Assembly (NCBI GenBank): GCA_963693285.1
Contig: OY848922.1
Coordinates: 8,358,923 to 8,422,922 of the forward strand
Direction of reading: 5' to 3'
Origin: Xestospongia muta
Lineage: Eukaryota > Porifera > Demospongiae > Haplosclerida > Petrosiidae
Length of the DNA stretch: 64,000 bases
Shown here: positions 28,637-63,465 of the stretch, piece by piece
Layout: each line of letters begins with the position of its first letter
Position numbering within the stretch: position 1 is the stretch's first letter
Notes under the pieces: generated by a model
Database searches by the model: none
What the model saw: only the letters and a program-made list of their open reading frames with translations
What the model was told of the DNA's origin: nothing
Translations under genes and position numbers: made by a program

Positions 28637-31564
28637 TTAAGAAATTAACGGACTCACAACTAGTACTGTCTCATCATTGATAGTGTAAGTGCAAGAAAGA
28701 GCTATCCCAAGAATGTTTTCTATTGGTACAAACTGGTTGTCTGAACAGAACTCAAAAGTTGAGTTACAATACACCTCATAAGGTTTACCAAAGTAATGAC
28801 GACTGGGATGATAACAAGGCCATGACACCATTGCAAAGATTTTGCTGACAAAAGACTCAGAGGAAGAAAATGTCAAAGAATGAGTAACAAAACCACTAAC
28901 TTGTGCAATACATACAGAAAAATTACTAAAGTAAGTAGTTTGCTCATGCTGTTGGTATCACTACTGAAGGGAAATATAGGCCTAGCAAGAACATATTGAC
29001 CAGTTACATATGCTAAACCATTAATTTCAATACGTTTCATGAGACGATGTGAAGAAGGAACCATAGAACAGTTTAATGTAGGATATAAACACTTATATAG
29101 TTTTGTAATTGCTAATAGTTGGGACTGTGAGAAGGAATGGATTGTGCATTTTATATCTGGTTTGTAGTTATTTTCTACATTAATAAGCTCTGAATGAGAC
29201 ATGGTAAGCAATGTTGAGGAATGATTATGGAAAAGTGGGACAAAAAGTTCAGAAACATTGTTTTTATCTTCTGACAACAAGATTAACAGGTGTATTTGTG
29301 AATTATCATTCATAAATCTATCCATTAATTGGCATTCAATGTTTTTGTTATTGTGTGGTAGGTTACCAAGTATACCATTGCACCTTTCAAATGAAAAAAG
29401 GAAAAAATTGGCAATTGGACCAATATCTTCAATGCATGCACGAAGATGACAATGAAGGTGCATGTTGGGAGTTGCACTATCTTGGCCATAGAGAGAAATG
29501 CAGCGTTTGCAAAACTGCATGAGCAAAGCATCTGCCAATTGAACATCACTCTGTGACAACTCTTTCTTATTGAGTAGTCTACAAGCCAAGACGAAATGCC
29601 TTAACCATTCTAATTCTTGTGATGTCAATATATCTTTTAAGCAAACAATGGCAAAATAGCATATCCATTTCATCCAATTCTCAGCAGTGAATGAAGAAAG
29701 ACAATGGACAGATGGTATTTGGTTTAACTTCATATTAGGAGTGATTTTAAAGCTTTTGATTACTGAATCAATAGAATTAAGAGATTCAGCACTTAGACGT
29801 CCATGCTTGAGCCATATGTTTTGGAAAATATGTTTTGCTGTCCCAATGTACATATTATGCATTGGGTCAATTATTGTCATTACAATAGGATCAAAGTAGG
29901 GTAAATCTAAAAGTACTGAATACCGGCATCCGACTTCACTCTCCTTCTTTCTTAAAGCTGATTCAGATCTACATAACTTCAGTTCATTTACATCATGTCT
30001 GTGTTTGTAATTACTCCTAGAAATCCACTTTTCTCTTTCAAAATTAGAATAATTATTCTTTCCGAACATGCCAGTAAAAAACTCACAATAACATTTAGAG
30101 CAACCAAGATTAGCTGTATGGCTCAGAAATCCACAAACCTTTCTGCTGGCAGGAATGTCACATGCAACACAAATTAAGGCAAACCGCAAAGTTAATGATC
30201 TACCATTTGAAAGATATATCAAAACACCCTGCCATAAGGTTAACAGTTCATCAACTAAGGGTTTCAAAAAGTGATTAACTGTTTTCTTTGGCTCATTATG
30301 ACCAGGAATTAATCCTACTAAGATTACATTTTCTCTTTTAAATCGCATTTTTCTTGGCAAATTAACTAGAACTAAATAAATTACACCAACTGAGTATTGT
30401 CTGTGCTTAAAAGGCTGAAACCAGTCTATGTTTAACATTAAGGCGAAATTGTTTTCTTTTGTTAAGAAGGCACTACCATCATCAGTTTTAATATGGTGCC
30501 ATATCTTTCCATCATGCACATCTCTCATAGTTCCATCAGTTGACAACATCATACGGTTTTTCTGACAAAGTTCGTAAAGGCCTTTACGTGCAAACAATCC
30601 TTTAAGGCTTTCAACTAAACTTTTATAGGCAAAAGTTAGATATGGATAATATTTATGCTTACCATCACTTATGATGACAGTTCGTAATAATTGATTTCTG
30701 CATAATGTACTTGACACATTAGTGTTTTTACATGTCTTAATGACAGTTTGGCCTCCTCTTTTCTCCAGACATTCATTAGGCTTATAAAGAAAATGGCACT
30801 TTCTACAAACAACATACTTTACAAAGGAAGACTGATGTATCTTTTTTTCAATCAAACGATTCTTTTGATACAATGTTTTAGGAAAAACATCTGCAAGTTG
30901 ACGTAATCGATGACAGTAAAGTCCACCAAAATGAAATAGCACAGAAACAAAACTCAAAATCCAACCAATAGCTTTAGAAGGTAATGATATACACACTCTC
31001 AAGGGCTGCAATAAAGCCAATGGTCCACCAAATCAAAGCTTCATCTTCTTCATCAAGATGTAATGCATTGTCTTCACTGTTGTTTAACCTTTCAATAAAT
31101 TCAGGAAATTCACATTCTAACTCATTGGAAGATTCAACCCATACTTCAGTATCTGTGATAAATAAACAACCAAGTTTAAAACTTGCTATAGGCAATTACT
31201 GTGTATGTAACATACCATTAACATCATAGATTTCAAGCTCATCGTTTGTTACATCATTTTCTGTTTCCAAACTATCAACAATTTCCATTAAGTCATCTGA
31301 GATGGTCGAGAGATCCAAACTAGAACGTTCTTTCTCGCGGCAAAGATCAGTCTCTTTAACGGGATCATCACTAGATGTGTCATACAAACTGATAGAAGAG
31401 CTATCATCCTCATTGTGCTTCCGGAGTTGTGATACATTACACCAGATCCCTGAGTGACAGTATAATCGTCGATGCTGCTTGTAAGTTTTCAATGAGAGTC
31501 TTTTAAAACAATGTCCGCAAAGCTTGAAATTTGTAGCCTTAGACTGTCTTAATCTCTGAGACAT
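28637..31564 (-). CDS. TNP2-type (EnSpm/CACTA) transposase
   Basis: Minus-strand gene inside the transposon. N-terminal exon 31216-31564 (MSQRLRQSK) has a Cys/His cluster (CGHCFKRL...HRRLYCH), probably zinc-binding and DNA-contacting. A second exon ends near DEALIWWTIGFIAA. The main open frame 28873-31017 has transposase hallmarks: FALMLNIDWFQPFKHRQYSV, NLPRKMRFKRENVILVG, IPGHNEPKKT, LPYFDPIVMTIIDPMHN. A 3' exon (28637 to about 28900) encodes HYFGKPYEV and ENILGIALSC, the typical TNP2 C-terminal part. Two junctions are not settled: near 31000 the frame shifts by one base relative to the preceding exon, and near 28890 a short intron seems needed. It may be a slightly damaged copy. Confidence 0.82.
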
Positions 31565-34274: not shown

Positions 34275-37200
34275 ATGGCTGTAACAAAACAACCACTTCA
34301 GGAGACATTGGAACAGAGACCAATTTTACAAGAGTTATGTGAACATATTCGCATTGGTGATAAATGGTATTTGTTAGGAATCCAGCTGAATCTGGATCCT
34401 AAGAAGTTGGATGATATTAAACAGCTACCAGGAAGTTCCGCATTCAAAACATCAAAAATGTTTCACTTGTGGTTGGACACTAACCCTTACGCTACAAGAA
34501 AACAAGTCATAGATGCTTTGAAGAAGAAATTTGTTGAGCAAGTTACTATTGCACATGAGTATGAGAATGCTATATGGAGTTCTGGTCAGTAATCTTATGC
34601 AAGACAAATGGCTAATATAATACCGCATGCATGTTTTGTGCTTTTTTACTGCCCCTAGGTACCGAGGCTGGTATCATTCTTGAATGTCATTTTGCTGAAT
34701 TTTCACAGTGTCTAATCAATCCTGTAAGAGTAGCTCAACTCTTATATAGTGAGAGATGCATCAATGAAAAAACACTTGATAAGATGGAAACATTAGAAGA
34801 CGTATTGGATGAGAAGAAGACAACTCTGTTGACTGCTCTGTATACTGCCATATCTTCAGATCACAAAATGTTGAAAGCTCTGGCTACAGTACTATCTCAG
34901 TTTGAAGAAACAAAACTTTTGTCTGAGAGAATTATCAGCGAATATGGTAAGAAATCATGTGCATTATTAGTTGTACAATTAATTGATGTTTTTAGCTCAA
35001 AAGTTTCCAAATAGTCAGAAGAGAGCTGATAATTTTAAAGTGATAACAACAACAGCAAATCAGACAAGCCCTGAAGATCATGCCAGTGACATTTTGCGAC
35101 TTCATTATGGTTCTCTCTCTCAATCTCTTTGTTATCCTCTTGGTGTGGCTAAACTACTTTATGGAGAGAATGTTATTTCAGCAAAAACATTGTCAGCAAT
35201 GAAATCTACTATAGAGTCTTTGTCAGGAGAAAAAAAAGCGATATTTGTTCTATTAAAAGCTATACGTCAAGCTTTACATGCCAAGTACCATAACCTTAAT
35301 ATCTTTATTAGTGTACTTTTAAAGTTTACAAACAATGTACCACATGCTACGGCAATGTGGAAGGACTATGGTAAGTATAATAATTAAACTACAATTCTGT
35401 TACTACTTCATGTTTCAACAGCGAAAGTATTTCCAGAAGAAGTAATAGCTACTGTTGGCGAAGGTATTGTGTTATAGTAATGCATTGTTATTAAATAAAA
35501 TATTAGGTAATTTGGTAACCACAACATCAACAATGTCACCCCAGACAACTTCAAATCAAGGTTGCTTCAGTTCCAAATGACATTAATTAATGTTAATACC
35601 TATTGTAGGTATTCCACTTCCTCGAACTTTGAGCCCGGTGTTTGGTTCTGTCCGAGAAGAATTTGCAATAGCATTCAGTAAAATTCGAGAAGCTATTAAT
35701 GCAAGCCCCCCCCCTTTGGATAAATTGAAGCTTTTCTTGGAAGATGGTTACCCTTATCTTCGACCTCAGTTAGCTCATTCTAACTCCATCAACGATATAC
35801 TTAATGTTGTGAGAGAGCATTGCACACTGATTAACATCAGTTGTCTAGAGAGCATTGTGAAGCGATTTGATATAGAAGAAGCTAAGACACACATAAAAGA
35901 ATATACTGATGCTATCCAGTCACTATGTAATGAAACAAAAGCTTCTCTTTGTCTGGGTGAAAGTTTCAAAGTGAAAAACACTCCTTCTCTTCTCCAATGT
36001 GAGACAGCTGTCTTTGTCTTAGATTGGAATCCCAGTGGCTGCACATTGGAAGATATTAAAGATATTCTTGCTAAATCAGTTGATGGAAATGTGGTGATTC
36101 ATGATTTGAGAGATGGTAACTCCGTTATTGTTACCTGCTTTTTTCCACTCAGCATGACAAGCTTACTTATTGCCAAAGCTCAGGAGACTCTTGAAACAGT
36201 AAAGAAAAAAGGACTGAAAAAACTTACTATTGGTCTTTGTACCATTTATGATAAGTGTGAAAGAGATAAGGTAAGATTGAGTGCTACAAACAACACTTGT
36301 AGAAATGTTGTAACCTGATATAGGAGGTTGCAACTATTGTAGAAGAGGAACTCAGAAGTCAATTGGAAATACAACAAGCCATGATTGAAACAATAGAAGT
36401 CCAGTCTACAGTCAGTAAAAATGAAGGTAAGTTTAATGTTATGGATATCTCTTGCTGTGTGATGTTTTCTGTATAAGTTTGATTGATGATGATAACACTT
36501 ATTTTATTTAGCTCAGATTTAATACCATGATTGGTTGATTAAATCATATATTGTCACATTTAACAAAATTATTTGATCCAAACTGAAAGCAAACATAAAA
36601 ATCTTTTGATTACTATTTTAATGTATTTTAGAATTGACTGTTTATCAAATGTTGAAAATCATTTGATAAACAGTCAATTCCATATATAGTAAAAAATCAA
36701 CAATCAATTTTTACAGTGTTAAAGATGTAGTTAATGGTTGATTCATTTGTAGAATAATGGTCAATCCTTACATCAAATTTATTCTCATCCACAGAAAATG
36801 ACATTAAAGATGAGTTCACTGATTTTTTGGTGAGGGTCAGAAACCAAATGTGTCAACTTAAGGAGGAAAATAGCACCTTGCAGCAGAAATTAAATGAAAT
36901 AGCTGACTCAAATCAGGAAGAGCTACATCAATTGGAGCAAGAAAATGTAAAATTGAAAGATGAGAACACTGACTTGCAAGATGAAATAAAGAATGTAAAA
37001 GAGAAATAGTAAGTGTATACTCATGAATAAGTTGTTCATTTTGGTTGCCCATATTTAGTAAGCAAGTGGAACAGAGATTAGTGCAGAAGGATTTTCAACT
37101 TAAAGACATGGAAAAAGTAATTATCACTCAAAATTTAGTATTATATAATGCCCTGGGGATAGGAAAATTCAGAAGAGAAGAAAAAGATTCAGAATGAGTT

Positions 37201-38752
37201 AAGAATATTGGAGACAAGAAATCTTGAGCTGCAGACTGAAAGAAACAAAGCACTCGAAGAACAAAATAAATTAAAAAGACAACTTGCTGAAAAAACTCTG
37301 ATGTGGAAGGAACAAGTAAGTAATCAAAGCAAAACTGTTAGTATGATTTTGTAATTTAAGTTTGAATTGGTTCAAAATGACTTTAAAACTGAGAAAGAAG
37401 CAAAAGAGAGAGCTTTGATGTCCTTACAGATGAAGAAGTACATTGTAATATAATTAAATCAAAAATTGATTCTCCTATAATAGTACATCTATGGATTCAA
37501 CGTTAACACAGAAAGAGATTGAACTTGTAAAACTGCAAGAAGTCCATCAATATGTTAGCACATAAATAGTCATATACATGACATGTTTTGAAAATCTAGG
37601 AATTGGAAAGTGTTAATGAAGAGTTGAGAATACAGAGAACAAAATACAAAGAGCTTGAAGATGAAAACAATCAATTGATTATGAGTACAATTGAAGAGCA
37701 AAACAGACTGAATGAAGAACTTAAGCAATATAAGATGAGGGAGGAAATGGTAGATAGAATCAATTCCTAAACTAACAATAACATTGTGTTTTTTGTATAG
37801 TCAGCATCACTTCAACGTGATTATCACCGTGAGAGAAGTGCAAGCCAGGCTTTGCAAAGAGAACTGGAACAGCTACGAAAAAAATTCCAACAAAATAGGT
37901 GAGATAAACACATATAATACTGATATCTATGTATAATCTCATTCTAGTCAACAACTGGAGGCAACTGATTCTCAACTGGAGCAACCACATTGGGTTGTTA
38001 GTGAAAACGAGGTTATAATAACACCGGAGGTCTTAGGTAAAGGGGCATATGGTGAAGTTAAAGTGGCTGTTTTCCGAGGTCTGAAAGTGGCAGCTAAGTC
38101 TCTCCATGGTCTCATTATATCACCCTACACTGAAACCATGTTCTCCAGAGAAATGGAGATTGCTTCTAGAGTACGTCATCCTAATCTTGTCCAATTTATT
38201 GGAGCTACCAGAGTGGGTACACCCATCATCCTCACAGAACTCATGACTACAAGCCTTTGCATAGTGCTTCAGAATAAGTGTTTAACACAATCCCAAGTAG
38301 TCCGCATCAGTTATGATGTTGCTACAGCTCTCAATTATCTCCATTTATGGAAACCAGATCCTATTATCCATCGAGATATTAGTAGCTCTAATGTCCTGTT
38401 AGAACCATCAGTAGCTGATAGCTTTAAAGCTAAAGTAGCTGATTATGGAGCAGCTAAGCTTCAACAACATACAAAGACACTTATGCCAGGAAACGTATCT
38501 TATGCTGCCATAGAAGCTCTTGATCCTGAGAGTCATACACCAGCAATGGATGTGTACAGTTACTCTATTCTCTTAATAGAGATGATTATTCATAAGCCAC
38601 CTGCTGGAACAATTCCAGAGAGAGAAAGACAAGCTAGTGGTGTGTCATGGCCACAAATGTCATTTCTCATCCAGAAGTGTCTCAACCGAGATTATCACCA
38701 TCGTCCAACTATGTCACAGATCTTAGACACGCTTAAGCAATTAAGAGTTTAA
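34275..38752 (+). CDS. Death domain - CARD-like x2 - UBAN-like coiled coil - TKL kinase (RIPK-like chimera)
   Basis: Fifteen exons: 34275-34584, 34659-34946, 34996-35370, 35422-35463, 35507-35560, 35609-36270, 36324-36426, 36795-37008, 37059-37116, 37163-37315, 37361-37437, 37484-37541, 37600-37749, 37801-37898, 37948-38752; 3447 nt, 1148 aa. Exon 1 is a Death domain (GDKWYLLGIQL, LPGSSAFKTS). Exons 2 and 3 each encode a six-helix death-fold/CARD-like module (VRVAQLLYSE; LGVAKLLYGE). Exon 6 (about 357-577) is an unassigned domain (VFVLDWNPSGC). About 578-880 is a coiled coil with UBAN-like FELVQNDFKTEKEAKER (from 754) and QRDYHRERSASQ. From about 905 is a TKL kinase: GKGAYGEV, VAAK, HRDISSSN, DYG, AIE in place of APE. 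Predicted to join death-fold assembly and ubiquitin binding to phosphorylation. Its ATG is 9 bp after the transposon. Confidence 0.88.
36631..36681. repeat. Perfect 21-bp inverted repeat in an intron
   Basis: GAATTGACTGTTTATCAAATG, an 8-9 base loop, then the exact complement, inside intron 7 of the death-domain kinase gene. The neighbouring sequence to about 36718 ends TTTTTACAGTG and resembles the ends of the foldback element at 63466-63697, so this may be part of a small non-autonomous element. Confidence 0.7.
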
Positions 38753-39222
38753 TGAGATTGCAAATTGTCAACTCAAGAAGTTAAATAAAATGCTATTTTG
38801 CTGCTATATATATCTGTTGTTTTGTTTTGCTGAATATTTCTCACTGAACTGTTAAGTAAATATATTCGTTCCTTGCTACTCATACTTGTATACTTACAAT
38901 GAAAGATATAAAAAGCATTTCTTAATCAAATACATCTTATTGAAGCATTTAGGGAGGGATCAGGGACACCCCGGTATTACAACATTCATGAATTCTATAA
39001 TAACCACAATCTACTAATATTATTTACTTACAACTGCTATGATTGGTGTATCAAGTCCCTCCCTTTCTTTCTTGTCAACAATAAAAGATAAAACTTGAGA
39101 CAAATAGTGAGAGTGACATTAAAGAAAGTTATATAGCTACTTGCATGTCTACTGTTATTACATATCAATATACACTGTCATCAATGAATTCACATATGAG
39201 AGGTTCTAATGGTCTTTTTTCC

Positions 39223-39440
39223 TTCTTTATTTAGAGTTCAGCTATTACAGAGAGTTTAAATTTAGCATCAAAAATATTTCAGTAAATCTATAGGATTTTT
39301 GAACCACTTCACAGTCAGTCCTGAAAGAAATCAATTGTACAGTTTAGCAAAAGAAATTGTAGACAGAAATAAATGACTGAATATTATTCTTTTAAAGGTC
39401 ATCACTCACATGTTACACTTGACAAGATTCATTGGTTATA
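39223..39440 (+). pseudogene. Detached copy of PDSS1 exon 9 and its 3' flank
   Basis: Repeats the acceptor, exon 9 and downstream flank of PDSS1 (compare 17860-18080), with differences including a frameshifting change in the middle (LNLAS... then altered frame) while the FLNHFTVSPERNQLYSLAKEIVDRNK-coding part stays readable. No other PDSS1 exons are nearby. Its flank looks closest to those of the 3.6-kb units, so it probably came from that array. Confidence 0.8.
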
Positions 39441-39616
39441 AAACATTTAGGAGCTACCCACTCTCCTTTTTTATAACTGACGGACGTTAGTTTATCAAAA
39501 AAGAAGGAGGGGCTAGCTCGGATGTCTGTTATCAAAAAGAAGGAGGGGCTAACATTTTACATCATTGTTTAGTGAGATAGGCTAACATAGACTTAGTGGG
39601 TGGATTCTCAAAAGTG

Positions 39617-41008
39617 ATGGCCACTAAAGCAACACAAATATTGTGGATTGATCCACCAGTTGAGCTGACATTTCTAGGTAAGTGACTTCTCTGATATTGA
39701 TTAGTAATGTTGTTAGAGTACTGTCTAGTGCTTACAATTATACAGTCGAAACTAGAGGCTACATACCAGTATGACATAGCCAAATATCTATAACCTACTT
39801 CTATTATTGCATTCATTCAATTTTAGAATTGAAACGTGCATTTACCATTCTTTGTGCACGTGATCAGCTTATGTTCTACTGAAATTTTAATATGACACGT
39901 AACACCTACCTTTTTTAAACTTTGACATGAAATTGAAGATACAACCTCTAAATAAAGATATGATAAAATTAGTAATAGTAAAATATGTAAATTATTTATA
40001 TTAATATGTATATTATTCACTGGCAGAGATACTGGGGGGGCAGGGGGGGCTTGAGCCCCCCCACTTTGCAAAGAAGGCAATTATATACGTGGGTGGGTGA
40101 TAGTCACTATAGTGTAAAAAATGTTGCATTGTGTGAACTCTCTAGCAGCTGGAAATTCAATTTACACTTATTAATTAATTCTACATGTAAGTTTTTTTTG
40201 ACTGAGCTGCCCCACTTTTTGAGTGGTGTCTCTGCCTCTGTTATTAAAATGTATTTCAATTGTAATTTGGTATCTTCTTTTACATTTAGGCCCATTCACA
40301 GATAAGGTCACAACCAAACTCATTCTTCGTAATCCCACTAATGAAAGAGTAGGATTTTTGGTAAAATGCACTGTTCCTAAACATTATGCTGTTAAACCAA
40401 ACAGTGGAGTCATCAAATCACATGGACAAGAAATAGTCTTTAGTAAATAAAAATAACTTTAATAAGTTCCAACATTATATTTTAATGCCATTTATGTGAT
40501 TATTTATATAATGTACTACTTAATATTCATTTCATGTTCTACATGGTGATAATGAGACATATACTGTAAATATTCTCAAAGCTTTATTAACCTAACAGCA
40601 AGTCTCTCATATCATTTCTTGCTATTCAATAGTATCACCTTTATAATATTTTTGTGATCTTAACACAGTTTTAACTTGTTTGTAGTTACTTCGATGCCAA
40701 TGAATGAAGCAGATCTAGCTGAACAAAGTAGACATAAGTTTATGGTCGTGACAATGTGTGTAGATGATGATATTGCTGCTAAAGATATAAGCACTGTTGT
40801 AAGATTCTCTTCTTTTAATTTCATTTAACTGCTTGTTGTGTTGCAGATAAACCTTGCTGATAAGGAGAAAACCATGGATACAAAATTACAGTGTGTATTT
40901 GTAGATACTGCTATTTCATCGTCTCATCAAGTAATAATGTTTGTGATTTAATTTAACATACACTGAGTAAATACAATGTCGTCATAGTCATTCATTCATT
41001 CATTTGAG

Positions 41009-41052
<44 letters not shown>

Positions 41053-42207
41053 CTTCCTAAGATGGTAGAAGGACAAGACAGATTAAAGAAGAAGCTTGAA
41101 CTAGAACAAGAAAATTGTAAAGAATATCTCCAGCAAGTTCAGATATGGAAAAATAAAGTAAACAAAAGGGTTAGACCATTGATGGTATTTTCTGTTTAGT
41201 TTGAATCAGCTCAGCGTGATTTGGAGTTTATGAAAAACACAAAAGAAAAGGAACTTCAAGAAATGCAGGCTTTGGAACAAAATTTAGTGAGAGAAGTGGA
41301 TGACCTACGTAGAAGAGTCACATTTTTGCAAGATCAAATTTATAATGAGAAAGAAAAATAGTTAGTAACTAAATTATTGTATCCATCATAACATATATAT
41401 CTTTAAAGTAAACAATTAGAAAGACTTCAGTCTCAACCACATTGGGTTGTGGATAAAGAGGAGCTGACTATGACATTGGAGGTCTTAGGGGATGGAGCAT
41501 ATGGTGAAGTCAAAGTGGCTGTCTTCCGAGGTCTAAGAGTGGCTGCCAAGAGTATCCATGGTCTCATCATCTCAGATTACACTCAAGATCTTTTCTCCAG
41601 AGAAATGGAGATTGCTTCTAAAGTGCGTCATCCCAATCTTGTCCAATTTATTGGAGCTACTAAAGTGGGTACACCAATCATCCTTACAGAGATCATGACC
41701 ACAAGTGTTTACAAAGAACTCCAAATGAAGGCTTTAACAAGAGCCCAAATACTTGGTATCAGTCGTGATGTAGCCTTAGGTCTGAACTATCTCCACTTAT
41801 GGAAGCCAAACCCTATTATACATCGAGATGTTAGTAGCCCTAATGTCCTATTAGAGCCATCAGTAGGTGATAGCTTTAAAGCTAAAGTAGCTGATTATGG
41901 AGCAGCTAACCTTCAACAACAAGCAAAAACCGATATGCCTGGAAATCCAGCATATGCTTCCCCAGAGTCTCGTGACCCTGAGACCCAAACTTCAGCAATG
42001 GATATTTATAGTTATGCTGTCCTTCTAGTAGAGATGATCCTTCATCAACCACCAGCTATGATGATTGCTGAGAGAGAAAAGCAAGCTAGTAGAGTATCGT
42101 GGCCTCCTATGACCTCTCTCATTCAGAGATGCCTAAACCGAGATTATCATCATCGTCCAGCCATGGCACTGATTTTAAAAGAAATAAATCAAATAAAAGT
42201 CAAATGA
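39617..42207 (+). CDS. VAP-type MSP domain - UBAN-like coiled coil - TKL kinase chimera
   Basis: Seven exons: 39617-39677, 40290-40442, 40686-40798, 40847-40930, 41062-41157, 41200-41360, 41409-42207; 1467 nt, 488 aa. Residues 1-137 are a VAMP-associated-protein MSP domain: [64 protein letters not shown]. About 138-223 is a coiled coil ending in the UBAN-like [19 protein letters not shown] and EVDDLRRRV. About 245-485 is a TKL kinase ([26 protein letters not shown] changed to SPE). VAP proteins normally end in a membrane anchor and bind FFAT motifs at ER contact sites; here a kinase replaces the anchor. The role as an FFAT- and ubiquitin-directed kinase is inference. A CT microsatellite forms the acceptor tract of intron 4. 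Confidence 0.87.
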
Positions 42208-42551
42208 ATTAATTAATTTGAAATGGGAGAATATAGATGTTGAAGTATTTCCTTTTTTATTTGAGCAAAGGATACTTGTATTTATGTATTTACTTCCTTA
42301 TTAATGTTCATTCACTGTTAGTTTTGAAAGCTATGATATTCTAGTAAAATAATCATTTCTGCTAACAAAATGATCCTGAAATGTGGAAAGCCGTGAGCTC
42401 TAGCTGATTATGACTCAGCTAAAAATGCCAATCAACTGGCAGTGCAACTTCTGGTAATCCTTACCACCTGGCTGAACAAAGTTCAAGATCCAGTCAATTT
42501 AGATGATGACTTACCAGCTGATGACAGACAAAGTGTTGCAAGATATAATCA

Positions 42552-42754
42552 TAACCAGTTAGCTACTAAATCTTCCACTACCCAACTTGAACGAGGTACA
42601 TCATCTTTTCCGAGGGTAGTATTGACGATTCTTTGGACACCTTCAATTTCACTCTCTCCAGGTTCTAGCTCACCAGAAGGTAACTTGAAAAATGTCATTC
42701 CTGCTGGGCTAGGACCTATTAAGTTATGTGCTCAGAGTGTATGATACACATGTA
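42552..42754 (-). pseudogene. Partial duplicate of NUDT21 exon 2
   Basis: About 200 bp match 43380-43583 (from CCAGTTAGCTAC to the ATGATACACATG end), covering most of NUDT21 exon 2 and its upstream intron edge with a few substitutions. The exon is cut off at one side and there is no neighbouring exon, so it is non-functional. Confidence 0.85.
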
Positions 42755-42764
42755 AGTTTATATA

Positions 42765-43065
42765 CTTAAAGGAAACTCCACCTCCTAAACATTCCTATAT
42801 GACCTAAGTTGTAAATGGACAATACAATAATGCAGTGTCTAGAGTACCAGTAATGGACACCATACTTTAATGTAAAATTAATACATATAGGTTCTGATGT
42901 TTAAGATATAGGGTCTGAGATATAGTATTAAAATTTCATTAAAGTACATAGCTCTATTACCAACACACTAGACACTGCCTATAATAAATGTATTATCTTA
43001 TATGTACATAGTCCAGTTAATATGTATAGATACGACTTATCAAATTCGATATGTAGTATTATAAG
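42765..43065. repeat. Dispersed copy of the 3' flank of the DsbA-like array
   Basis: The stretch starting AAAGGAAACTCCACCTCC repeats DNA found downstream of DsbA-like copies A and B (about 19628-19920 and 23262-23540) with small indels. Together with 39223-39440 it shows that pieces of the 18-26 kb array also lie on both sides of the VAP-kinase gene. Confidence 0.85.
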
Positions 43066-43089
43066 GTAGCATCTTTGAAAGCATACATA

Positions 43090-47111
<4,022 letters not shown>

Positions 47112-47183
47112 TGAAACAACAACATCTAAGACTGTTTAATAAAATGAGATATAAAATAGAGTTAGTATACATGTAACAACTGG

Positions 47184-47857
47184 TCAATCATCATTTGTTT
47201 CGTCACCTTCCTCAATTCGACTTAGCTTTGATCCAGGTCTTGATGTGGTGAGGTTAGTTGTATGAGTTTCTTCTTGTGTGTCAGATACTGTTAGTACAGG
47301 CTCTGTTTCTGAAATATATGGTTCTTCTATTGTCGTTTCTTGATTATCTGTTATAATATCTTGAGCATTTTGTACAGGTTCTTCAGTCTAAATAAAGGAC
47401 AACTATTATATTGTATGTACTACTAAATAGGGCCCCCTCTTTGTATAGACCACACCCACTTAAGAAAAGAGGGTTTTAGTTGGATATGAAAAATACGAAA
47501 TTACAACTCCTATAATAGATGCTATGATATGGTTGCTAAGCAACTAGTAAGTTGAAAAATGCCTCCATAACTGTCTTTAGTATAAAGGTGTCCTCAATAT
47601 AGAGGTTGTATAATACACTAAAGTATTAGTATGGGACTAGAACAAGTGTCCTCAATGTAGAGGGTGTCCTTAATTCAATTTTCATTATGAAAGGTTTCAT
47701 ACTATACCTTTTGAGAAGCTTCTTGTAAGTTTTTTTTATGATTCAGTAGCCACAATCCGAGATACTCTATCGGATCTGTAGGTCGACGAAGAGCAATTTC
47801 GGCCAGTCCCAAAGCTAAGGCAGGTCCTACTGTCTGCTTTACATATTCGCTTTCCAT
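47184..47857 (-). CDS. DPY30-motif protein (DYDC-like)
   Basis: Two exons (minus): 47708-47857 and 47184-47387; 354 nt, 117 aa. Residues 1-50 are a DPY30 dimerisation/docking motif: MESEYVKQTVGPALALGLAEIALRRP (given here in parts: GPALALGLAEIA, RPTDPIEYLGLWLLNH). It fits the small DYDC1/2-like proteins, some of which dock in cilia and sperm tails, rather than DPY30 itself. The C-terminal half is acidic, Thr/Glu-rich and probably disordered. The single intron holds one copy of the 58-bp repeat. A CCACACCC box lies about 64 bp upstream of the start. Confidence 0.8.
47578..47680. repeat. 58-bp repeat, DPY30-motif gene intron
   Basis: One full and one partial unit of the 58-bp family in the CCTCAATATAGAGG orientation. 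Confidence 0.8.
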
Positions 47858-48052
47858 TGCGTTACGCAGTTACCATGGCTACACGTTGTCCACCTATTAT
47901 AATAATACTCTCGCATAAGCCACACCCATCATAATTAAAAACAGACAAAATTTTTAACATTAATTTCACACATCAAAAAAGGAACAAATCAATAATCATT
48001 AATAATGGATAATATTAAGGGGCAAATTCATTGAAAATTGTCTTTTTCTTAA

Positions 48053-53499
<5,447 letters not shown>

Positions 53500-53741
53500 C
53501 CAATATCGGTACCACGTAATAGATTTTAGCCACACCCTTCACGTCCCTGGTGATTTGGGGGCGTGCCTGTCGGAACACGCGCTTTGCTCTATCACGTAGA
53601 ATGACGAAGCTGGGATATTCCCTCAAAAAACTAGGTGGCAGTGATTGGTCATTGATATAGTATATAGGTATTATTGAGGTATGCTGATAACTACAAATAT
53701 AATCCGTTATCTCTTCTATTATCTCTAGTAGAAACCTCAAA
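53500..53741. promoter_or_regulatory. 242-bp divergent intergenic region, ACSL / NEMO-like gene
   Basis: Head-to-head spacer. It contains CCACACCC (about 53530), GGGGGCGTGCC (about 53557) and GGAACACGCGC, i.e. GC-richer than the surroundings, then an AT-rich part near the NEMO-like start. A shared promoter is inferred. Confidence 0.5.
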
Positions 53742-56700
53742 ATGTCTAACCAATGGAACGATGCTGGTCCAGCTTATGGTAGTGGCTATGATCATTCTTC
53801 TCGTAGTTACAACCCGCCTGTAACAGTAAGATTAATATTTATTACCAGTAGTTATTTACATTGAGTTTTTTTCAGCCTGCATCACTAATGTCAAGAGCTG
53901 GTGATGGGATAGCTGGAATGGGTTCTGTGACGCCTGAAGTCTGGAACGATATCTTGATGCAAATGCAGAAATTAGTTGTAGACAATGAAAAATTAAGGTA
54001 TAACAATATAGCTATTGTTTTATAATATAATATAGCTATTGTTTTATATTTAATTACTTGTATTCTTTTAGGAAAGCACTTGAGAGTAATAATCATGAAC
54101 TTCAAAAAATGTTAGCCAAAAAGAAAGGTCAGTTATATGATAATAGAATCTTGTATTGTAATGAGATATTTTAGTGATTAGTTTTTGATTGCCATTATTA
54201 ATAATATAAACTTATTTTTTAATATATTTTAATTACATATGTACAATGCTTCACAAATTAATCTCAGTGAAAAATACATCAATTAACCTCTTATAAAGGT
54301 CACTGTGAATTAAGAAGACCCTACCTCTATATTGAGGACACTTGTTCTAGTCCCATACTAATACTTTAGTGTATTATACAACCTCTATATTGAGGACACT
54401 TGTTCTAGTCCCATACTAATACTTTAGTGTATTATACAACCTCTATATTGAGGACACTTGTTCTAGTCCCATACTAATACTTTAGTACATTATACAACCT
54501 CTATATTGAGGACACTTGTTCTAGTCCCATACTAATACTTTAGTACATTATACAACCTCTATATTGAGGACACTTGTTCTAGTTCCATACTAATACTTTA
54601 GTACATTATACAACCTCTATATTGAGGACACTTGTTCTAGTCCCATACTAATACTTTAGTGTATTATACAACCTCTATATTGAGGACACTTGTTCTAGTC
54701 CCATACTAATACTTTAGTGTATTATACAACCTCTATATTGAGGACACTTGTTCTAGTCCCATACTAATACTTTAGTGTATTATACAACCTCTATATTGAG
54801 GACACTTGTTCTAGTCCCATACTAATACTTTAGTGTATTATACAAACTCTATATTGAGGACACTCGTCTAGTCCCATACTAATACTTTAGTGTATTATAT
54901 ACTACTATTATACAGTATATTAAGGATACCTCTCTTCACTATTTACATATTAGAGGTTCCATACTTTTAATAACTGAAATAGTTTATAACGATTATTAAT
55001 TTAGGTTGAAATTAATTGTAAATAATACCTAATGTTGTTAATTGTAATATCATTTGTACTCATAGACAATGAGAAAGCTCAAAAAGAAGCTACAGAAGCT
55101 CAAAAGTTATACTGGGATGCTCGTGTCTCTGTACTTGGTTTTAAAGCCAAGATCATGAAACTAACTGGTGAAAGAGATCAGTTACTTAGCCAACAATCTA
55201 GTGTATCCACAGAGTCCTCATCCTTGAAAGAAGTAAGAAATAATTAATAGAAATATGAATTAATTATGTTAAAGTTGGAGAAAGAAAAAGAGCAGTTACA
55301 TATGGAGAAAATAACTATGGAAGAAAGTAACCAAAACTTTAAGAAGCAGTTACAACAAACAGAAGTAAGTAAATATTAAAATTGACAAACATGGATTGTC
55401 TTTTAGGAAGAATTACAAAAATGGCGTGACCATTTTCAAAAGATGTCAACTGATAACCAAGAATTACGTACAGAAAATGTAAATACACATTTAAAAACAT
55501 ACTTTAAATTTTATTGTATTGTGGTTCTTTGTTGTTAGAGCCAGTTAATACGCAATTATGAGCAAAAGATTGCAGAACTTCAGCAAGATATCCAACGAGT
55601 CTCTCAACAACCTGTCCCTAAGCCACGTACAATGTTGAAATCTGATCCTGACCTTATAAATAAATATGAAAAAGAGAAAGAAGATCTTAGAGCTCAATTG
55701 AGAACAGCAGAGCATCAAATTGAAACAGAGAGGAAGAGTCGTGAAGCTGCTGAGACAAAACGAACAAGAAGCAATGAAGAGATAGCTCAATTAAAATATC
55801 AACGAGATAGTCTTCATAGTAAGCTCAATGAAATGGAATTACTAAAGAAGGAATTTGATATGAAACAGCAAAGAGTGAGTCAAGTCTTTCATTTTTTTCT
55901 AATTTTTATCCATTCATCTTTCTCTCCTTATCCTGACGACATATTCAATAGTATGAAAGAGATATTCGTTCATTGAGGCAGCAATTAGAACAGCAACCAC
56001 CTCCAACCATGGAAGCCGTTCCTTCAGGAGGACCTTCTGGAGGAGCCACTGTCATGAAACTTCGTAAACAGCTCAATGAACAATTTGGTGTAAGTCATAA
56101 CTTGTACAATACAAAATATGATCTTCTTTTAGAAAATAAAAGCGCTCAATGATGAAAATCAAGCTCTCAAACAAGACGTGGAAGTGAAAGATACTAACAT
56201 GAAGTGGCTTAATTCAGAAAAAACAAAACTTCAAAACCAGTCTCGCCAACTTAGTGAAGAAATCAGTATCTTGCGTCAAAGATTAGATGACGTAGGAGAC
56301 TCAAACCAGGAGCAACTACATGAATTAGAACGACAAAATGCCACTTTGAAAGATGACAACACGTATTTACAAGACCAAATACAAAATGAGAAAGAGAAAA
56401 TGTTAGTCCATTCACTTTAAACTACAAGCTGTCATTATTTTTTTTAAATTTAGCCATCAACTTGAAGTGAGGTTATCACAGAAAGAGTCTCAACTTCAAC
56501 AACAACTACAAAGTAATGAAAGTACCAGTAGTAGCTGGGAACAATATATTGATGTGAGTACTTTATCAGTAACAATCATCATATTTATGCTGAACCAAAG
56601 CTTGTAAATACAGTGTAAGTACATGGTGCTTTCTATTAAGACATTTTGTTAAGGTACATGTTAAAAGATGGCCACCTAACAACAATATATATGAAACTGT

Positions 56701-58397
56701 GAAGACCACTGCTATATGTACATACATATCTTTATACAGAGTGCCTCTTAGTTAGTATAGTTTGATAATGTTTCTCATGGCTAGGAAATGGAAAAAGAAA
56801 TGGAAAGAGTTCAAGGCGAGTTAAAAGCACTGAGAAATAAAAACCAAGATTTTCAGACTGAAAATCATCATTTGATGACAGAGAGAAACAGAGCAGTTGA
56901 GGAACAAGATAGATTGAAGAAGAATCTTAAACAAAAACAAGATAATTGTAAAGAATATCTTGAACAAGCTCAAATGTGGAAAGAACAAGTCAGTAGACAA
57001 TGAAATGAAGTATTTATGTATGTTCATGTAGTTTGAATCTGCTCAACGTGATTTTGAGCTTGAGAGAAATGTGAGAGAGAAAGAAGCTCAAGCTGTTCAA
57101 GCATTGCGCCAAAACAGAGATAGTTTACAGAAAGAAGTGGATGAGCTACGTAGAAGAGTCACTCAACAGCAATCAGATCTTGCTAACTATCAAGACCCTG
57201 ATTTTGTAGGTGGTCCAATGACAGAACCTCTGGGTGGTCATGGAGTAGGTAGTCCTTCATATCAACCTCCATCAGGTGATCAAAGAAGGGGAGGTTACAG
57301 CCAACAACATGGTTTTGGAGATCAAAGGGGTTTATCCACACACCCTCGTCACTCAGGTGAGCAAAAGTATCCTCTTGGACATGTTGAAGGCTCTCGTCAA
57401 CCAATTGAAAAAGCATCTCCACCAATTCCACGTAGAGAACAGGGTCCAGGTTATGGGAGTGATGTTTACAGTCCACCAGCTCGTCCTTTAGGAGACCAGG
57501 GTTATCGTCATCCAATGCAACAAGGATCTCCACCTATGCCAAGAGAACATGGTCCAGGACGTGGGAACATAGGTTATAATCAAACTGATCGTCCCACAGG
57601 AGATCAAGGCTATCGTCCTCTCCCACAAGAGGGCTTTCCTCCTCGTCAAACTGGAGGAGGGGATTGGACAGCACCTGTGGCAGGAATTGGCCAATTCCAA
57701 AGATCTGATCGTGCATCTGGAGGTGGTGAAATTTTAGGGCAACATTTTCAACAGTAAGTTTTGTTTGTCTTCACAAATACAATATATGTATTTAATATAT
57801 GCTATTTATCACTTTCCCTGGCTCCATGATATATTAATAGTTTGTATGAAGACCATTAATTTTGACTCGAGTATTTAAAACATTGTAGACTATAAATAAG
57901 ATATGTCCTGGTGTTAATAAGGCACTATAACTTCAGCAAGTATTTAAAGGAACCTACTTAATGTATTAAGTAGTAGCATATTGACATTATCTTGATTTCA
58001 TATAGGAGGCCTAGACAGAATGTAACTGCACAAGAGTATCGTCAAGTGGTAAGAGATTGAGACAAACAAAGAGAGAGAGAGAATAATATAAACTCACTTA
58101 TCCCATTATTATTCTTTACATATTTTAGACACCTAAATATGAAAATATACGTCCTGGGCAACCTTATGGTGGAAATCAATTCCCACCACCAGATCCACAA
58201 CCTTGGCAAGTAAGTCACACAATCTCATATTTCCATGGCAACCATTTAACCACTCTTAGCAACAAAACCAAGCGGGTGTGGTTCTTCCTGGGGATATACC
58301 AAATTTAGCTAAACCATCAATGAGTTGTCCATTATGTGGTCGAGCAGACTTTGCCACTCAAACTGAACTTGAAATGCATTGTGCTAAATGTGACTGA
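53742..58397 (+). CDS. NEMO/optineurin-like ubiquitin-binding scaffold
   Basis: Fifteen exons: 53742-53825, 53876-53997, 54072-54127, 55066-55232, 55275-55364, 55407-55478, 55539-55874, 55952-56089, 56133-56401, 56454-56553, 56785-56988, 57032-57753, 58006-58048, 58129-58209, 58260-58397; 2622 nt, 873 aa. N-terminal coiled coil (MQKLVVDNEKLRKALESNN, 60-80) resembles the first helix of NEMO/optineurin, the IKK/TBK1-binding side. Long coiled coils follow to about 590. Residues 547-589 hold a UBAN motif (FESAQRDFELERNVREKE), which binds linear/K63 ubiquitin in relatives. About 590-830 is Pro/Gly/Gln-rich and disordered. The C-terminus (851-873) is a C-x2-C-x13-H-x3-C zinc finger like NEMO's. Expected role: cytoplasmic ubiquitin adaptor in innate signalling or selective autophagy. 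Which paralogue it matches best cannot be judged here. Confidence 0.82.
54315..54905. repeat. 58-bp minisatellite array, NEMO-like intron 3
   Basis: About ten tandem copies in CTCTATATTGAGGACACTTG orientation, the largest array here. Variants (TTAGTGTATTA, TTAGTACATTA) are clustered, which suggests local unit spreading. Confidence 0.95.
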
Positions 58398-59649: not shown

Positions 59650-62600
59650 TTAGTAATCTTCATCATCCAGTAGTGATTCTCGTCTCATTACTACTGATAC
59701 CACACTCACTGAACTAGTTTCACATGATAAAGCAGGAGATCCAGGACGTATTAAAGGAATTTCTGCATCATCAGTAACAGGATCTGGTGGAGGCTTCTTA
59801 AAGACCCTCATGATTTTTGCAATTGGTTGTTTCAAACAAGATTTAGACAGATAGTCCCAGACATGATAGAGGATAATACCACAGAATATTACAAATGATA
59901 CTGATACTAAACCAACACTTAACAGTTGCCTTGAATTTGACTTTTCACAAGTTTGTACGTTCACATAAGCTATAATCATGAGATTAAGAAAAAAAGACAT
60001 CTCTAGACAAGCCAAAGGTAAATGTCGATATATTCCTTTTAAAAGGAAGTACATTGATATAATAACAAATAAAAGAGATGTTAACACATCCAAACTTATA
60101 GTAGCCTTAATATCTAGAGACACAACCAGTGCTAATATAACACGAACAAGTAGTAAAAATCCAGTCCAAAAACGACACTTGTCCTTATATGGACCTCCAT
60201 ATGCATCAAAGAAAGGCTTCATATACTTTTGGCAGCAACACATGTATTTTGATAGAGGTCCTTCAAATAATGGTATAGTAAGAAGATAGAAAGTGTATGG
60301 TACAATTAGTAAAATGAGTACAGCCACTGAGAACAGGAACAATGGTAGATGACAATAACCTCCTACATATAAGATATTAGCATCAATGTACCACCTCAAT
60401 AATGTCATATTATTATTACCATTACACTGAATATTAATGAAATAAAGGGTCTTGAAGACAGTACGTATCAGTTTGGTATAAGAGAGAAGGATCATAGTGG
60501 CTAGTACTGGAACTGCATGTGAGCCCACAAGTCGAACCACTTTGCTGGAATATTGTGATGATATTACAATGAGTATTAGTAGAAACCAAACATAGGCTGG
60601 AAAAATAAACTGTAGCCATGTCTTACTGCAAGAATCCATACCATCAATGAAACAAGTCTCAATACCCAGATCTAGATTGAGCCAGGAAATGAATTGACTA
60701 AGAACTTTCACAGGACCATTGGGAAAAAAAATGGGTTCATATATTTTGACAACGTTAGCATAGAATATAAGTCCATTGATTGTACCCACAGATACAGTTA
60801 AGTTTAAAGCAATGATAAAAGCTACCAGTGCTATACCAGCTAAAGCAAATGGAATGATAAGAGCTATGTAGTTATTAGTACATTGTCCACATTGATTGGA
60901 ACCTAACATGAGACTGAGTCCTTCACTACATTGTCCACAGAGTATGCCAGATCGATTGTAAAGACACTGTGGATCTGGAGAGGTGATTTTAAATTGAACT
61001 GTTCCATCATTGCAGTAATCAAAGGGGCAGTGAGGATAAACAATAAGACAGTCTGAGTCATTATTATAACCAATCCACATATCACCATCTCTAGTTATAA
61101 TTTGAGTGTTGATATCACAAGTTATTGAAGATGTATTTAATTCAGATCTACAACTGCAAGTATCATTTATTAATGGATAACCAATTGGACAGGACTCAAT
61201 ACTAATGTCGATGAATATAAAATAAGCTTCAGATGAAAATTCAGTGATAAAACCTTCAAGTGTTACACCGACGTTTGTTGTGTTCAATGAAGGGTTTGCT
61301 GTTAACTTGAAGGTTACATTGGTACAAGTTGCATTTAGTCTAGTATTGTCAGTTTGTACAGTAGATGATGAACTATCTAATGTTGTCAATTTTATAACAC
61401 CCTTTGTTAAACCATCTTTATTACCAACAATAGCTAGTGATATATTGACATTAATTCCAGGTATTGCTGTTATATTGATGTTTGTAATAGAGCAATTTTG
61501 TATGTTTGATTCACAAAAACACGCTTTGATAGGATCTGATGACACTACTGATAGACCTGTCTGTTGAGGGTAATAAAATTGGTGATCAAAGTCAAAGTTG
61601 ATACAATGAGAGAATATACCTCCATACAAGACATCACCAGATATATCAGCTGTATTGTTGACAAAATATAGTATCTTAGTATTAGTATCATAAAAAGGAA
61701 CATCTCTAAAGGAACAAAATTTCACAACGTTTTCACCAGCTAGTGACACAAATATTCCTCCACCTGACTCACTGGCATGATTATTGACAAATGATATGTT
61801 TGTGTTCGGCTTTAATAATAATTGGCAGAGTCCATATAAAGCAATACCTCCACCATTAATACCAGAATTGTTTACAAATGTACTATGTCCATCAAATGTT
61901 ATTATTGGGCTATTGATACTCACTAAACCAGTTGTGTTATGATTACTAATGTCAATTTGGCTAAAAACAACATTTTCAATGTTCACTAGAAACACAGCAG
62001 ATTGATACATGTTAAACATGTGTGGTACTTTATTGAATTGAAATGAAACATTTGTAAAACGAATGCTAGTTATTGAAAAAATTTGGGAAGCAAAGAAACC
62101 TGATCCAATGTATGCAGTATTGTTGTATATAGTGCAGTTATTAAACTCAGTACTACTACTTCCTTTTCGCGAATCAATGTACACTCCTCCTCCTTCATAA
62201 GAAGCAGTATTGTTGTATATAGTGCAATTACTAAACTCAATATTACCACTTCCTTTTTGCAAAGAAATGTAAACTCCTCCTCCTCTATTCCAAGCAGTAT
62301 TGTTGTATATAGTGCATTTACTAAACTCAGTTCTACCACTTCCTTTTTCCAACTCAATGTAAACTCCTCCTCCTTCTCCTCCATACTGAGCAGTATTGTT
62401 GTATATAGTGCAATTACTAAACTCAATACTACCACTTCCTTTTTGCAACTCAATGTAAACTCCTCCTCCATACTGAACAATATTATGTGAAAACTCACTA
62501 TTTTCAATGATTATCTCAACTTCAATTTCATTATCAAAATAATGCACCAAAGTCATACCACTTCCTATACCCAGTGTAAAATTTGATTTCACGATATTAA

Positions 62601-63237
62601 CTCTGGATAGTTTTTTAACCTGGTCATCATAGTAAATTAATGTATTGCCTACATCAGTCTTAAGATCTCCATTATTAGCAAATGTGGAATTGATGATTAA
62701 CACATCAAAACCATTGTAAAGAACTAGTCCAATATCAGAACTATTCTGGACTGATACCCATTCCAATGTCACATTATTGATGTCACCAAAGAATAAGCTA
62801 ACACCATTACTTCTAATCAAATTATATCCATAGTTTGTTATTGTTATTGATTTTAATACAACATCTGTGCTATTAGTAAATTTTATACCACCTCTGTTGT
62901 AATCACTACATCTTATTACTGAGGTAGATTGCATGACAGTCTCATGAAAGCCTTGTTCTATATGACCCAGTCCCTGTAGAGTTATATTACTTACACCACT
63001 GATCTCCAATATACCTTGTAGAAAATGAGTTCCCTCTAGGAAGTAAAAGATTGTGTCATCAGTGAAGTAAGATATATAATCAGCAATATAGTAGGAGAGG
63101 TTGTGACAAGGTAGGTCAGTATGAGGACAAGGTACTTCATTAGGATCTGCAGAGACATAATACTCAGAAGCAGTAACATATCCACTGTAGATATACAGTA
63201 TAACTGATGTTATATAATAGATATGACACCAGCTCAT
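59650..63237 (-). CDS. Parallel beta-helix ectodomain plus multi-pass membrane protein
   Basis: Single exon, 1195 aa, unusual in this intron-rich window. An N-terminal signal peptide (residues about 1-23) precedes right-handed beta-helix repeats (pectin-lyase-like), clearest at about 250-385 as five 29-31-residue repeats with NCTIYNNTA and GGGVYI. Many N-glycosylation sequons are present. A Cys-rich stretch (about 700-790, CGQCSEGLSL, CGQCTNNY) leads to about eight to ten hydrophobic helices (790-1150), with conserved-looking FFDAYGGPYKDKCRFW between two of them. The tail (about 1150-1195) is cytoplasmic and Ser/acidic-rich. It looks like a surface receptor, adhesion or channel-type protein; the family is not named here. 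The DNA repeats at 62110-62465 could expand or contract. A single exon could reflect retroposition or a lineage-specific family. Confidence 0.85.
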   Translation of the reverse strand: MSWCHIYYITSVILYIYSGYVTASEYYVSADPNEVPCPHTDLPCHNLSYYIADYISYFTDDTIFYFLEGTHFLQGILEISGVSNITLQGLGHIEQGFHETVMQSTSVIRCSDYNRGGIKFTNSTDVVLKSITITNYGYNLIRSNGVSLFFGDINNVTLEWVSVQNSSDIGLVLYNGFDVLIINSTFANNGDLKTDVGNTLIYYDDQVKKLSRVNIVKSNFTLGIGSGMTLVHYFDNEIEVEIIIENSEFSHNIVQYGGGVYIELQKGSGSIEFSNCTIYNNTAQYGGEGGGVYIELEKGSGRTEFSKCTIYNNTAWNRGGGVYISLQKGSGNIEFSNCTIYNNTASYEGGGVYIDSRKGSSSTEFNNCTIYNNTAYIGSGFFASQIFSITSIRFTNVSFQFNKVPHMFNMYQSAVFLVNIENVVFSQIDISNHNTTGLVSINSPIITFDGHSTFVNNSGINGGGIALYGLCQLLLKPNTNISFVNNHASESGGGIFVSLAGENVVKFCSFRDVPFYDTNTKILYFVNNTADISGDVLYGGIFSHCINFDFDHQFYYPQQTGLSVVSSDPIKACFCESNIQNCSITNINITAIPGINVNISLAIVGNKDGLTKGVIKLTTLDSSSSTVQTDNTRLNATCTNVTFKLTANPSLNTTNVGVTLEGFITEFSSEAYFIFIDISIESCPIGYPLINDTCSCRSELNTSSITCDINTQIITRDGDMWIGYNNDSDCLIVYPHCPFDYCNDGTVQFKITSPDPQCLYNRSGILCGQCSEGLSLMLGSNQCGQCTNNYIALIIPFALAGIALVAFIIALNLTVSVGTINGLIFYANVVKIYEPIFFPNGPVKVLSQFISWLNLDLGIETCFIDGMDSCSKTWLQFIFPAYVWFLLILIVISSQYSSKVVRLVGSHAVPVLATMILLSYTKLIRTVFKTLYFINIQCNGNNNMTLLRWYIDANILYVGGYCHLPLFLFSVAVLILLIVPYTFYLLTIPLFEGPLSKYMCCCQKYMKPFFDAYGGPYKDKCRFWTGFLLLVRVILALVVSLDIKATISLDVLTSLLFVIISMYFLLKGIYRHLPLACLEMSFFLNLMIIAYVNVQTCEKSNSRQLLSVGLVSVSFVIFCGIILYHVWDYLSKSCLKQPIAKIMRVFKKPPPDPVTDDAEIPLIRPGSPALSCETSSVSVVSVVMRRESLLDDEDY

Positions 63238-63465
63238 GACGGTAGCGTGTTAAACAGTAAAGACCAAATGAACAATAGAAAATTAATGTCAAACTGATGA
63301 AGAAACAAGATAATTTAAGTTGTATTTCTGCAGCCTTTTATAAACTGAAATATTACATGTTGACATCATTTCCTGTGAATACCATAGCAACTCATATAAT
63401 TTAGTATAAAATGAATGTAAGTAAATTACAAGATGTTACTATAGAATCTATCATAAATTGATGAA

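Follow-up and report, generated by a model that had tools for sequence, protein, structure and literature searches.

A coiled-coil cassette shared by a NEMO-like scaffold gene and neighbouring kinase genes in the sponge Xestospongia muta

Introduction

How could one coiled-coil cassette come to lie both in a NEMO-like scaffold and directly before the kinase domains of two neighbouring genes? The question is raised by a stretch of 64,000 nucleotides of the Xestospongia muta genome (contig OY848922.1; C6:8358923-8422922 in our numbering), here called the window, with which we searched the 158 Mb of that genome on 28 contigs. The first-pass annotation had proposed exon shuffling from a NEMO-like gene into nearby kinases, and with it kinases directed to ubiquitin. 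Protein and DNA comparison, intron phase, the genome-wide distribution of the cassette and a second locus argue for the shuffling and not for the ubiquitin direction of the kinases. As far as sequences can tell, there is good support for a transfer of the cassette out of the NEMO-like gene and into kinases through duplication and recombination.

One cassette in three genes

The three genes, for which models were built by hand, all lie on the plus strand. The scaffold protein comprises a long coiled coil, a UBAN-type stretch (exons 11-12), a Q/G/P-rich linker and a finger-like C-terminal motif of the form CxxC...HxxxC. The kinase gene K1 combines a death-domain head, helical domains, a domain of a large family, the NEMO-derived cassette and a TKL kinase. 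The genes with their cassette and kinase exons are, in window coordinates:

53742..58397, plus strand: NEMO-like scaffold gene, 15 exons, 873 residues (last acceptor corrected by 3 bases)
56133..56401, plus strand: scaffold exon 9, containing DSNQEQLHELE...NEKEK, with a phase-2 donor
56454..56553, plus strand: scaffold exon 10, HQLEVRLSQKESQLQQQ, entering in phase 2 and leaving in phase 0
56785..56988, plus strand: scaffold exon 11, with MWKEQ at its end, phase 0
57032..57753, plus strand: scaffold exon 12, FESAQRDFELERNVREKE as UBAN-type core, plus linker, leaving in phase 2
34275..38752, plus strand: K1 gene, 15 exons, 1152 residues
36795..37008, plus strand: K1 exon 8, copy of scaffold exon 9
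37059..37437, plus strand: K1 exons 9-11, read as copies of scaffold exons 10-11-12, core DFKTEKEAKE
37484..37898, plus strand: K1 exons 12-14, interpreted as scaffold exons 10-11-12 once more, core DYHRERSASQ
37948..38752, plus strand: K1 exon 15, kinase domain (PF00069, 112.6 bits)
39617..42207, plus strand: K2 gene, 7 exons, 488 residues, with MSP domain, cassette and TKL kinase
41062..41157, plus strand: K2 exon 5, copy of the end of scaffold exon 11
41200..41360, plus strand: K2 exon 6, chimaera of the start of scaffold exon 12 and the end of exon 9
41409..42207, plus strand: K2 exon 7, kinase domain (PF00069, 109.9 bits)

Counted in scaffold exons, K1 reads 9, 10-11-12, 10-11-12, kinase, and K2 reads 11, fused 12/9, kinase. 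Since scaffold exons 10-12 start and end in phase 2, this block can be inserted or repeated with the frame kept. The peptides quoted in the first-pass annotation were all found, within open exons flanked by GT-AG, and the intron positions it described, phase 0 before F(E) and phase 2 after (E)KEK, occur in all three genes. Its layout of the cassette, with the KEK block preceding the UBAN exon, holds for the scaffold and K1; in K2 this block is fused to the end of the UBAN exon, and the DSNQE block, which it had counted among the shared ones, is missing.

Protein alignments were compared with 1000 heptad-preserving shuffles per segment, in which each residue keeps its heptad class, and with 1000 full shuffles. 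All six segments aligned to the scaffold (K2 exons 5-6, 5 and 6, which overlap, and K1 exons 8, 9-11 and 12-14) scored above every heptad shuffle. The figures are 50 of 83 residues identical for K2 exons 5-6 (score 248, heptad-shuffle maximum 109), 36 of 69 for K1 exon 8 (178, maximum 93) and 42 of 92 for K1 exons 9-11 (166, maximum 96). The weakest segment, K1 exons 12-14, has 32 of 81 residues identical (108, maximum 99) and a score reached by one of the 1000 full shuffles. Three control coils from related kinases lay at heptad background, with 262, 532 and 587 of 1000 shuffles as high (36, 109 and 9 of 1000 by full shuffles). These comparisons bear out the claim of a cassette shared by three genes.

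Relatedness extends to the DNA, where exon alignments were held against the maximum of 200 codon shuffles. K2 exon 5 agrees with scaffold exon 11 at 71 of 87 nucleotides, and K1 exon 8 with scaffold exon 9 at 113 of 153. The first 122 bases of K2 exon 6 match the start of scaffold exon 12 (93 of 122 nucleotides, score 76) and its end matches the end of scaffold exon 9 (32 of 40, score 40), with codon-shuffle maxima of 30-34 (30 for the whole exon, 32 for the last 44 bases). K1 exons 10, 13 and 14 narrowly exceed their shuffles (40 vs 38, 44 vs 35 and 33 vs 28). DNA relatedness to the scaffold is thereby seen in both K2 cassette exons and in four of the seven of K1, at 73-82% identity over the significant exon matches.

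A second locus with exchanged heads and tails

A genome-wide search with the UBAN exon of the scaffold found four places, all on the contig of the window: the scaffold itself, a headless 3' copy, a second locus and K2. K1 is absent from this search because its copy is too diverged. The K1 cassette found 12 places, again all on this contig and all within these same genes.

C6:8144101-8164100 (L035, L036), minus strand: second locus, about 250 kb from the window genes

A further kinase fusion lies at this locus, an open model of 979 residues that has the start of the scaffold, internally repeated scaffold exons and a K2-type kinase end; its exons 1-2 are at a synonymous distance of 0.02 from the scaffold. 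Scaffold and kinase are joined inside a single exon, with the breakpoint within scaffold exon 10, near 56510 of the window, where HQLKMRLSQKESQLQQQ is followed by PHWVV. The UBAN exon is missing from this model. Three tandem copies of scaffold exons 8-9 can be seen in the fusion (L035 37-3544), and each of the first two has a piece of exon 7 attached in frame. The adjoining gene on the same strand, a candidate chimaera, has a death domain (30.2 bits, cut-off 22.6), a K1-type exon-6 domain (65% identical) and a scaffold tail that includes the UBAN-type exon and the finger motif.

Compared with the window by blastn, at 70-95% DNA identity, the second locus has a K1-type head, then the 3' half of the scaffold, an acyl-CoA-synthetase-like gene, the 5' half of the scaffold and a K2 kinase: copies have exchanged their tails. 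The death-domain chimaera shifts from K1-like (DSNQEKLHQLE) to scaffold-like inside the cassette, so that the shared cassette itself was probably the site of recombination. A third copy, headless, of the scaffold 3' half is found some 28 kb downstream from the scaffold gene in the window; it retains the UBAN core. Synonymous distances among the copies of the region range from about 0.02 to 1.4.

The kinases and their heads

The K2 kinase domain has at least 149 matching places in the genome, some of them fragments, and 39 of these places reach at least 72% identity, K1, K2 and fragments included. Both kinase domains contain the G-loop, VAxK, HRD and DYG motifs, K1 having AIE instead of APE, and both score far above cut-off with PF00069 and PF07714. 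In the PDB, searched with the K2 kinase only, the best matches are CTR1 (87 bits) and TAK1 (75 bits), ahead of IRAK4 (62 bits). By fold, motifs and these relatives K1 and K2 are TKL kinases. The nearest kinases found for K1 and K2 belong to the large family of this genome itself, in a tree built without any IRAK or RIPK. There, K2 and the second-locus kinase are sisters (100/100), and the 13-row group that holds them also includes K1 (96/93). As the joins differ, at least two recombination events are needed.

Close relatives were represented by 28 fetched kinases (L003-L030), with 1500 bases upstream of each subjected to a word search. Another head signature was found upstream of all 28 and a Q-rich coil word upstream of 26, and cassette words occurred in none of these upstream stretches. 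Pfam recognises Kelch repeats in the reading frame at 1446-2138 of the window and, of two relatives tried, upstream of one; 'Kelch-type head' is a label resting on these few tested members. In the window, another member of this large kinase family, with a Q-rich coil, lies on the minus strand at 3527-4831. Two near-identical Kelch frames lie on the same strand, one 5' of this kinase at 6420-7106 and the other at 1446-2138 (only the latter was run against Pfam).

The heads of K1 and K2 are of other kinds:

34275..34584, plus strand: K1 exon 1, death domain (PF00531, 23.8 bits, cut-off 22.6, exon scanned alone)
35609..36270, plus strand: K1 exon 6, large-family domain (150 or more matches in this genome, the majority on contig C4)
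39617..40930, plus strand: K2 exons 1-4, MSP domain (PF00635, 71.2 bits, cut-off 25.9)

The Pfam scan of the full 1152 residues of K1 does not list the death domain. For the exon-6 domain, no Pfam model reaches its cut-off and no PDB match was found at E<=0.001; its predicted structure, of low confidence (mean predicted local distance difference test score, pLDDT, of 62), has helices followed by a ferredoxin-like-looking part. Among five fetched loci with this domain, the same two helical domains precede it in all five and a further domain stands before those in four; Death was not called for the single first domain scanned (L058). One of the five has a leucine-rich-looking tail, which Pfam does not recognise.

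A model for the cluster

The reading we favour, with a probability of about 0.6, is a chimaeric gene cluster around one NEMO-like scaffold, in which the cassette would serve as a rod through which TKL kinases with death-domain or MSP heads dimerise or dock. First, scaffold exons 9-12 would have been copied before the kinase exon of members of the large TKL family, whose other close members have a Kelch-type head and a Q-rich coil. Of the products, K1 has a death-domain head of the kind seen in another very large gene family and carries the phase 2-2 block of exons 10-12 twice in tandem, and K2, in its model, combines an MSP head with one shortened, internally recombined copy of the cassette. 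Finally, the neighbourhood would have been duplicated about 250 kb away and tails swapped by recombination in or beside the shared cassette, leaving one gene in which a K2-type kinase has a NEMO head and another in which a K1-type head precedes the UBAN and finger tail of NEMO. In the predicted proteins the coiled-coil rod would make the kinase a dimer and may also associate with the NEMO-like scaffold, while the head (death domain or MSP) would set the place of recruitment and the kinase domains, brought together, would trans-activate. Heads of these kinds would fit a role in signalling.

Several points weigh against this reading. The three kinase fusions form a clade in 4% of bootstrap trees, yet such a clade is not rejected (approximately unbiased test, p 0.185). 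The cassettes of K1 and K2 agree better with the scaffold (46% and 66%) than with one another (30-37%), which leaves one shared capture unproven, and the start of their kinase exons resembles the own coil of related kinases as much as scaffold exon 10. At the DNA level, K1 exons 9, 11 and 12 stay below their codon-shuffle maxima (24 vs 28, 27 vs 34 and 30 vs 32); they are assigned by protein, order and phase. The ratio of non-synonymous to synonymous change (dN/dS) is 0.30 over 72 codons for the K2 cassette against the scaffold, 0.31 over 76 for that of K1, 0.58 for exons 11-12 of the second-locus chimaera against the scaffold and 0.29-0.31 for two kinase pairs. Purifying selection on the kinase pairs and on the cassette relative to the scaffold counts in favour of the reading, but a pairwise ratio cannot say which side is constrained. 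The join from exon 4 to exon 5 of K2 is predicted only, exon 5 starting with ATG, and exons 1-4, with the MSP domain, may belong to a gene of their own. At the second locus, the death-domain/NEMO gene, read in pieces, is a candidate. It is the coiled-coil character by itself that suggests dimerisation and docking, and the fusions are known here from genomic DNA, with transcripts and proteins predicted.

Does the cassette still read ubiquitin?

The label 'NEMO-like' that the first-pass annotation gave to the scaffold has modest evidence behind it. The strict signature D[FY]xxERxxRE, a form of DFxxERxxRE, which we take to be the UBAN core motif, occurs once in the scaffold and arises in 5 of 20000 shuffles (85 of 20000 for a loose motif). 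Aligned to mammalian NEMO, the scaffold is equalled by one of 2000 shuffles and the death-domain chimaera by 42 of 2000. A PDB search with scaffold exons 11-12 places mammalian NEMO chains at the top of the list, in a gapless alignment and at an E-value of 0.03. In Pfam, the CC2-LZ family (PF16516) is the best match of a 104-residue scaffold piece, at 23.4 bits and below its cut-off of 35.3; the whole scaffold protein reaches no Pfam family at cut-off, with CC2-LZ unlisted. By themselves the PDB and Pfam figures are weak, because a generic control coil reaches E-values of 1e-5 in Pfam, lower than those of the cassette, against other coil families. For the CxxC and HxxxC of the C-terminus, no NEMO finger was found among nine PDB matches and no Pfam finger at cut-off. 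When scaffold residues 340-872 were compared with a large protein collection, 7990 candidates were scored and none had E<=0.001.

The claim that K1 and K2 are ubiquitin-directed kinases, with the cassette as a functional UBAN recruiting the kinase to linear or K63 chains, is not supported, and we consider it unlikely. In its favour, the cassette descends from a gene whose own copy retains the signature. Of the six signature residues, presumably equivalent in position and role to D311, F312, E315, R316, R319 and E320 of human NEMO, the scaffold keeps all six, the chimaera five, K1 copy one four, K1 copy two three and K2 two, so that two to four are lost in the kinases. K1 copy one retains D, F, E and E and has lysine for both arginines. 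Against mammalian NEMO, however, the two K1 copies and K2 are equalled by 188, 194 and 230 of 2000 shuffles and match no better than the best of five control coils (194-1373 of 2000). The K1 cassette has no PDB match at all and the K2 cassette no NEMO among its 18 matches; CC2-LZ was found by Pfam in neither, nor in the UBAN piece of the death-domain/NEMO chimaera. The second-locus kinase fusion, in its model, has no UBAN exon to begin with.

As the scaffold keeps the signature and K1 and K2 match NEMO only as control coils do, the kinases appear to carry a drifted descendant of a UBAN-type region. Ubiquitin binding by K1 is possible but weakened, and by K2 unlikely; ubiquitin sensing, if any, would reside mainly in the scaffold and the death-domain/NEMO chimaera. 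A bolder view makes K1 a one-chain signalosome, which would unite a receptor-type death-domain head, a rod of NEMO origin that reads ubiquitin and a MAP3K/IRAK-like kinase and would pair with the scaffold and the chimaera. We regard this as distinctly unlikely; if true, a pathway of separate proteins in other animals would have been covalently fused in this lineage.

Other readings of the locus

Little probability attaches to an artefact of assembly or gene modelling, by which cassette and kinase exons would belong to different transcripts. Some K1 donors are weak (GTATTG, GTTGCT, GTACAT, GTTAGC, GTAGAT) and K2 exon 5 opens with ATG after a CT repeat. Such an artefact has to be squared with GT-AG borders in all 34 introns of the three models (14/14, 14/14 and 6/6), 27 of them of 42-80 bases, with frames open throughout, and with the scaffold-kinase join at the second locus, which sits inside a single exon. 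The kinase exons, moreover, start in phase 2 in the models and so must have a 5' partner.

That the kinases had the cassette first and the scaffold borrowed it, or that a common ancestor already had it, seems very improbable. Heads are clearly exchangeable in this kinase family, and a cassette tree built without an outside species could be rooted either way. Still, none of the 28 close kinase relatives shows a cassette word in the 1500 bases upstream, the scaffold has the fullest exon set together with the UBAN signature, and K2 exon 6 fuses two scaffold exons.

The notion of generic low-complexity coils alike by composition has next to no probability: all segments are E/K/Q-rich coils, and a control coil can reach 1e-5 in Pfam, but chance likeness is ruled out by the heptad-preserving shuffles, none of which reached any segment, and by the control coils at background, and the DNA identity and shared intron phases speak against it as well.

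Surroundings of the genes

A minisatellite with a unit of about 58 bases occurs in the window at 43604-43839, 44568-44876 and 54323-54908, in L037 at 5777-6149 and also at the second locus, mostly at 90-98% identity; the headless scaffold copy begins directly beside one such array. Adjoining the scaffold gene, window positions of about 48050-53500 (minus strand) hold what we take to be an acyl-CoA-synthetase-like gene, as does L035 3855-6845. The interval separating the two second-locus chimaeras contains stretches that are 89-91% identical to it, and some pieces there have no match. At 59650-63249, minus strand, lies a frame of 1199 residues with repeated GGGVYI...TIYNNTA units and, by eye, a multi-pass-membrane-looking tail; next to the headless scaffold copy, pieces of this frame are met again at about 90% identity. 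A frame of 719 residues at 28873-31032, minus strand, may encode a transposase, which it resembles.

Comparison with known systems

Domain shuffling that yields scaffold-kinase fusions is a known process with, here, unfamiliar combinations: the parts are of known kinds, and to our knowledge these combinations have not been described. Among the matching titles and abstracts listed, with incomplete coverage of subscription papers, none dealt with a UBAN-kinase fusion or with NEMO in Amphimedon, and passages of PMC10694592, a paper on NEMO, showed no fusion of this kind.

With NEMO/IKBKG, optineurin and TNIP (ABIN) the scaffold shares the long coiled coil, the DFxxERxxRE core that aligns without gaps to NEMO CC2-LZ, and the C-terminal CxxC-HxxxC. 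It differs from them in its long Q/G/P linker, in a CC2-LZ score below cut-off and in a finger that neither Pfam nor the PDB recognises, and the core is eroded in the kinases. At 873 residues, the scaffold is about twice as long as NEMO.

IRAK and RIPK1 carry a death domain and a TKL-type kinase on one chain. K1 likewise has an N-terminal death domain and a C-terminal TKL-type kinase, but its head and kinase are separated by the NEMO-derived cassette and further domains, and its closest kinases come from the large family of its own genome. NEMO-IKK and optineurin-TBK1 are coupled non-covalently and involve kinases of another family. Here too a kinase is coupled to a piece of a UBAN coiled-coil scaffold, but as one predicted chain. 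The region bears on whether a NEMO-type rod fused to a kinase replaces coupling of the IKK-NEMO type, and on whether ubiquitin reading survived the fusion or was lost with it.

Exon shuffling of symmetric modules builds gene families, and scaffold exons 10-12 are likewise a phase 2-2 block that was duplicated and moved. The region differs from this scheme by its exchanges of heads and tails and by one exon built from two. Its scaffold gene, the three fusions with kinases and the one with a death-domain gene present domain shuffling in progress, with breakpoints still readable at the level of exons.

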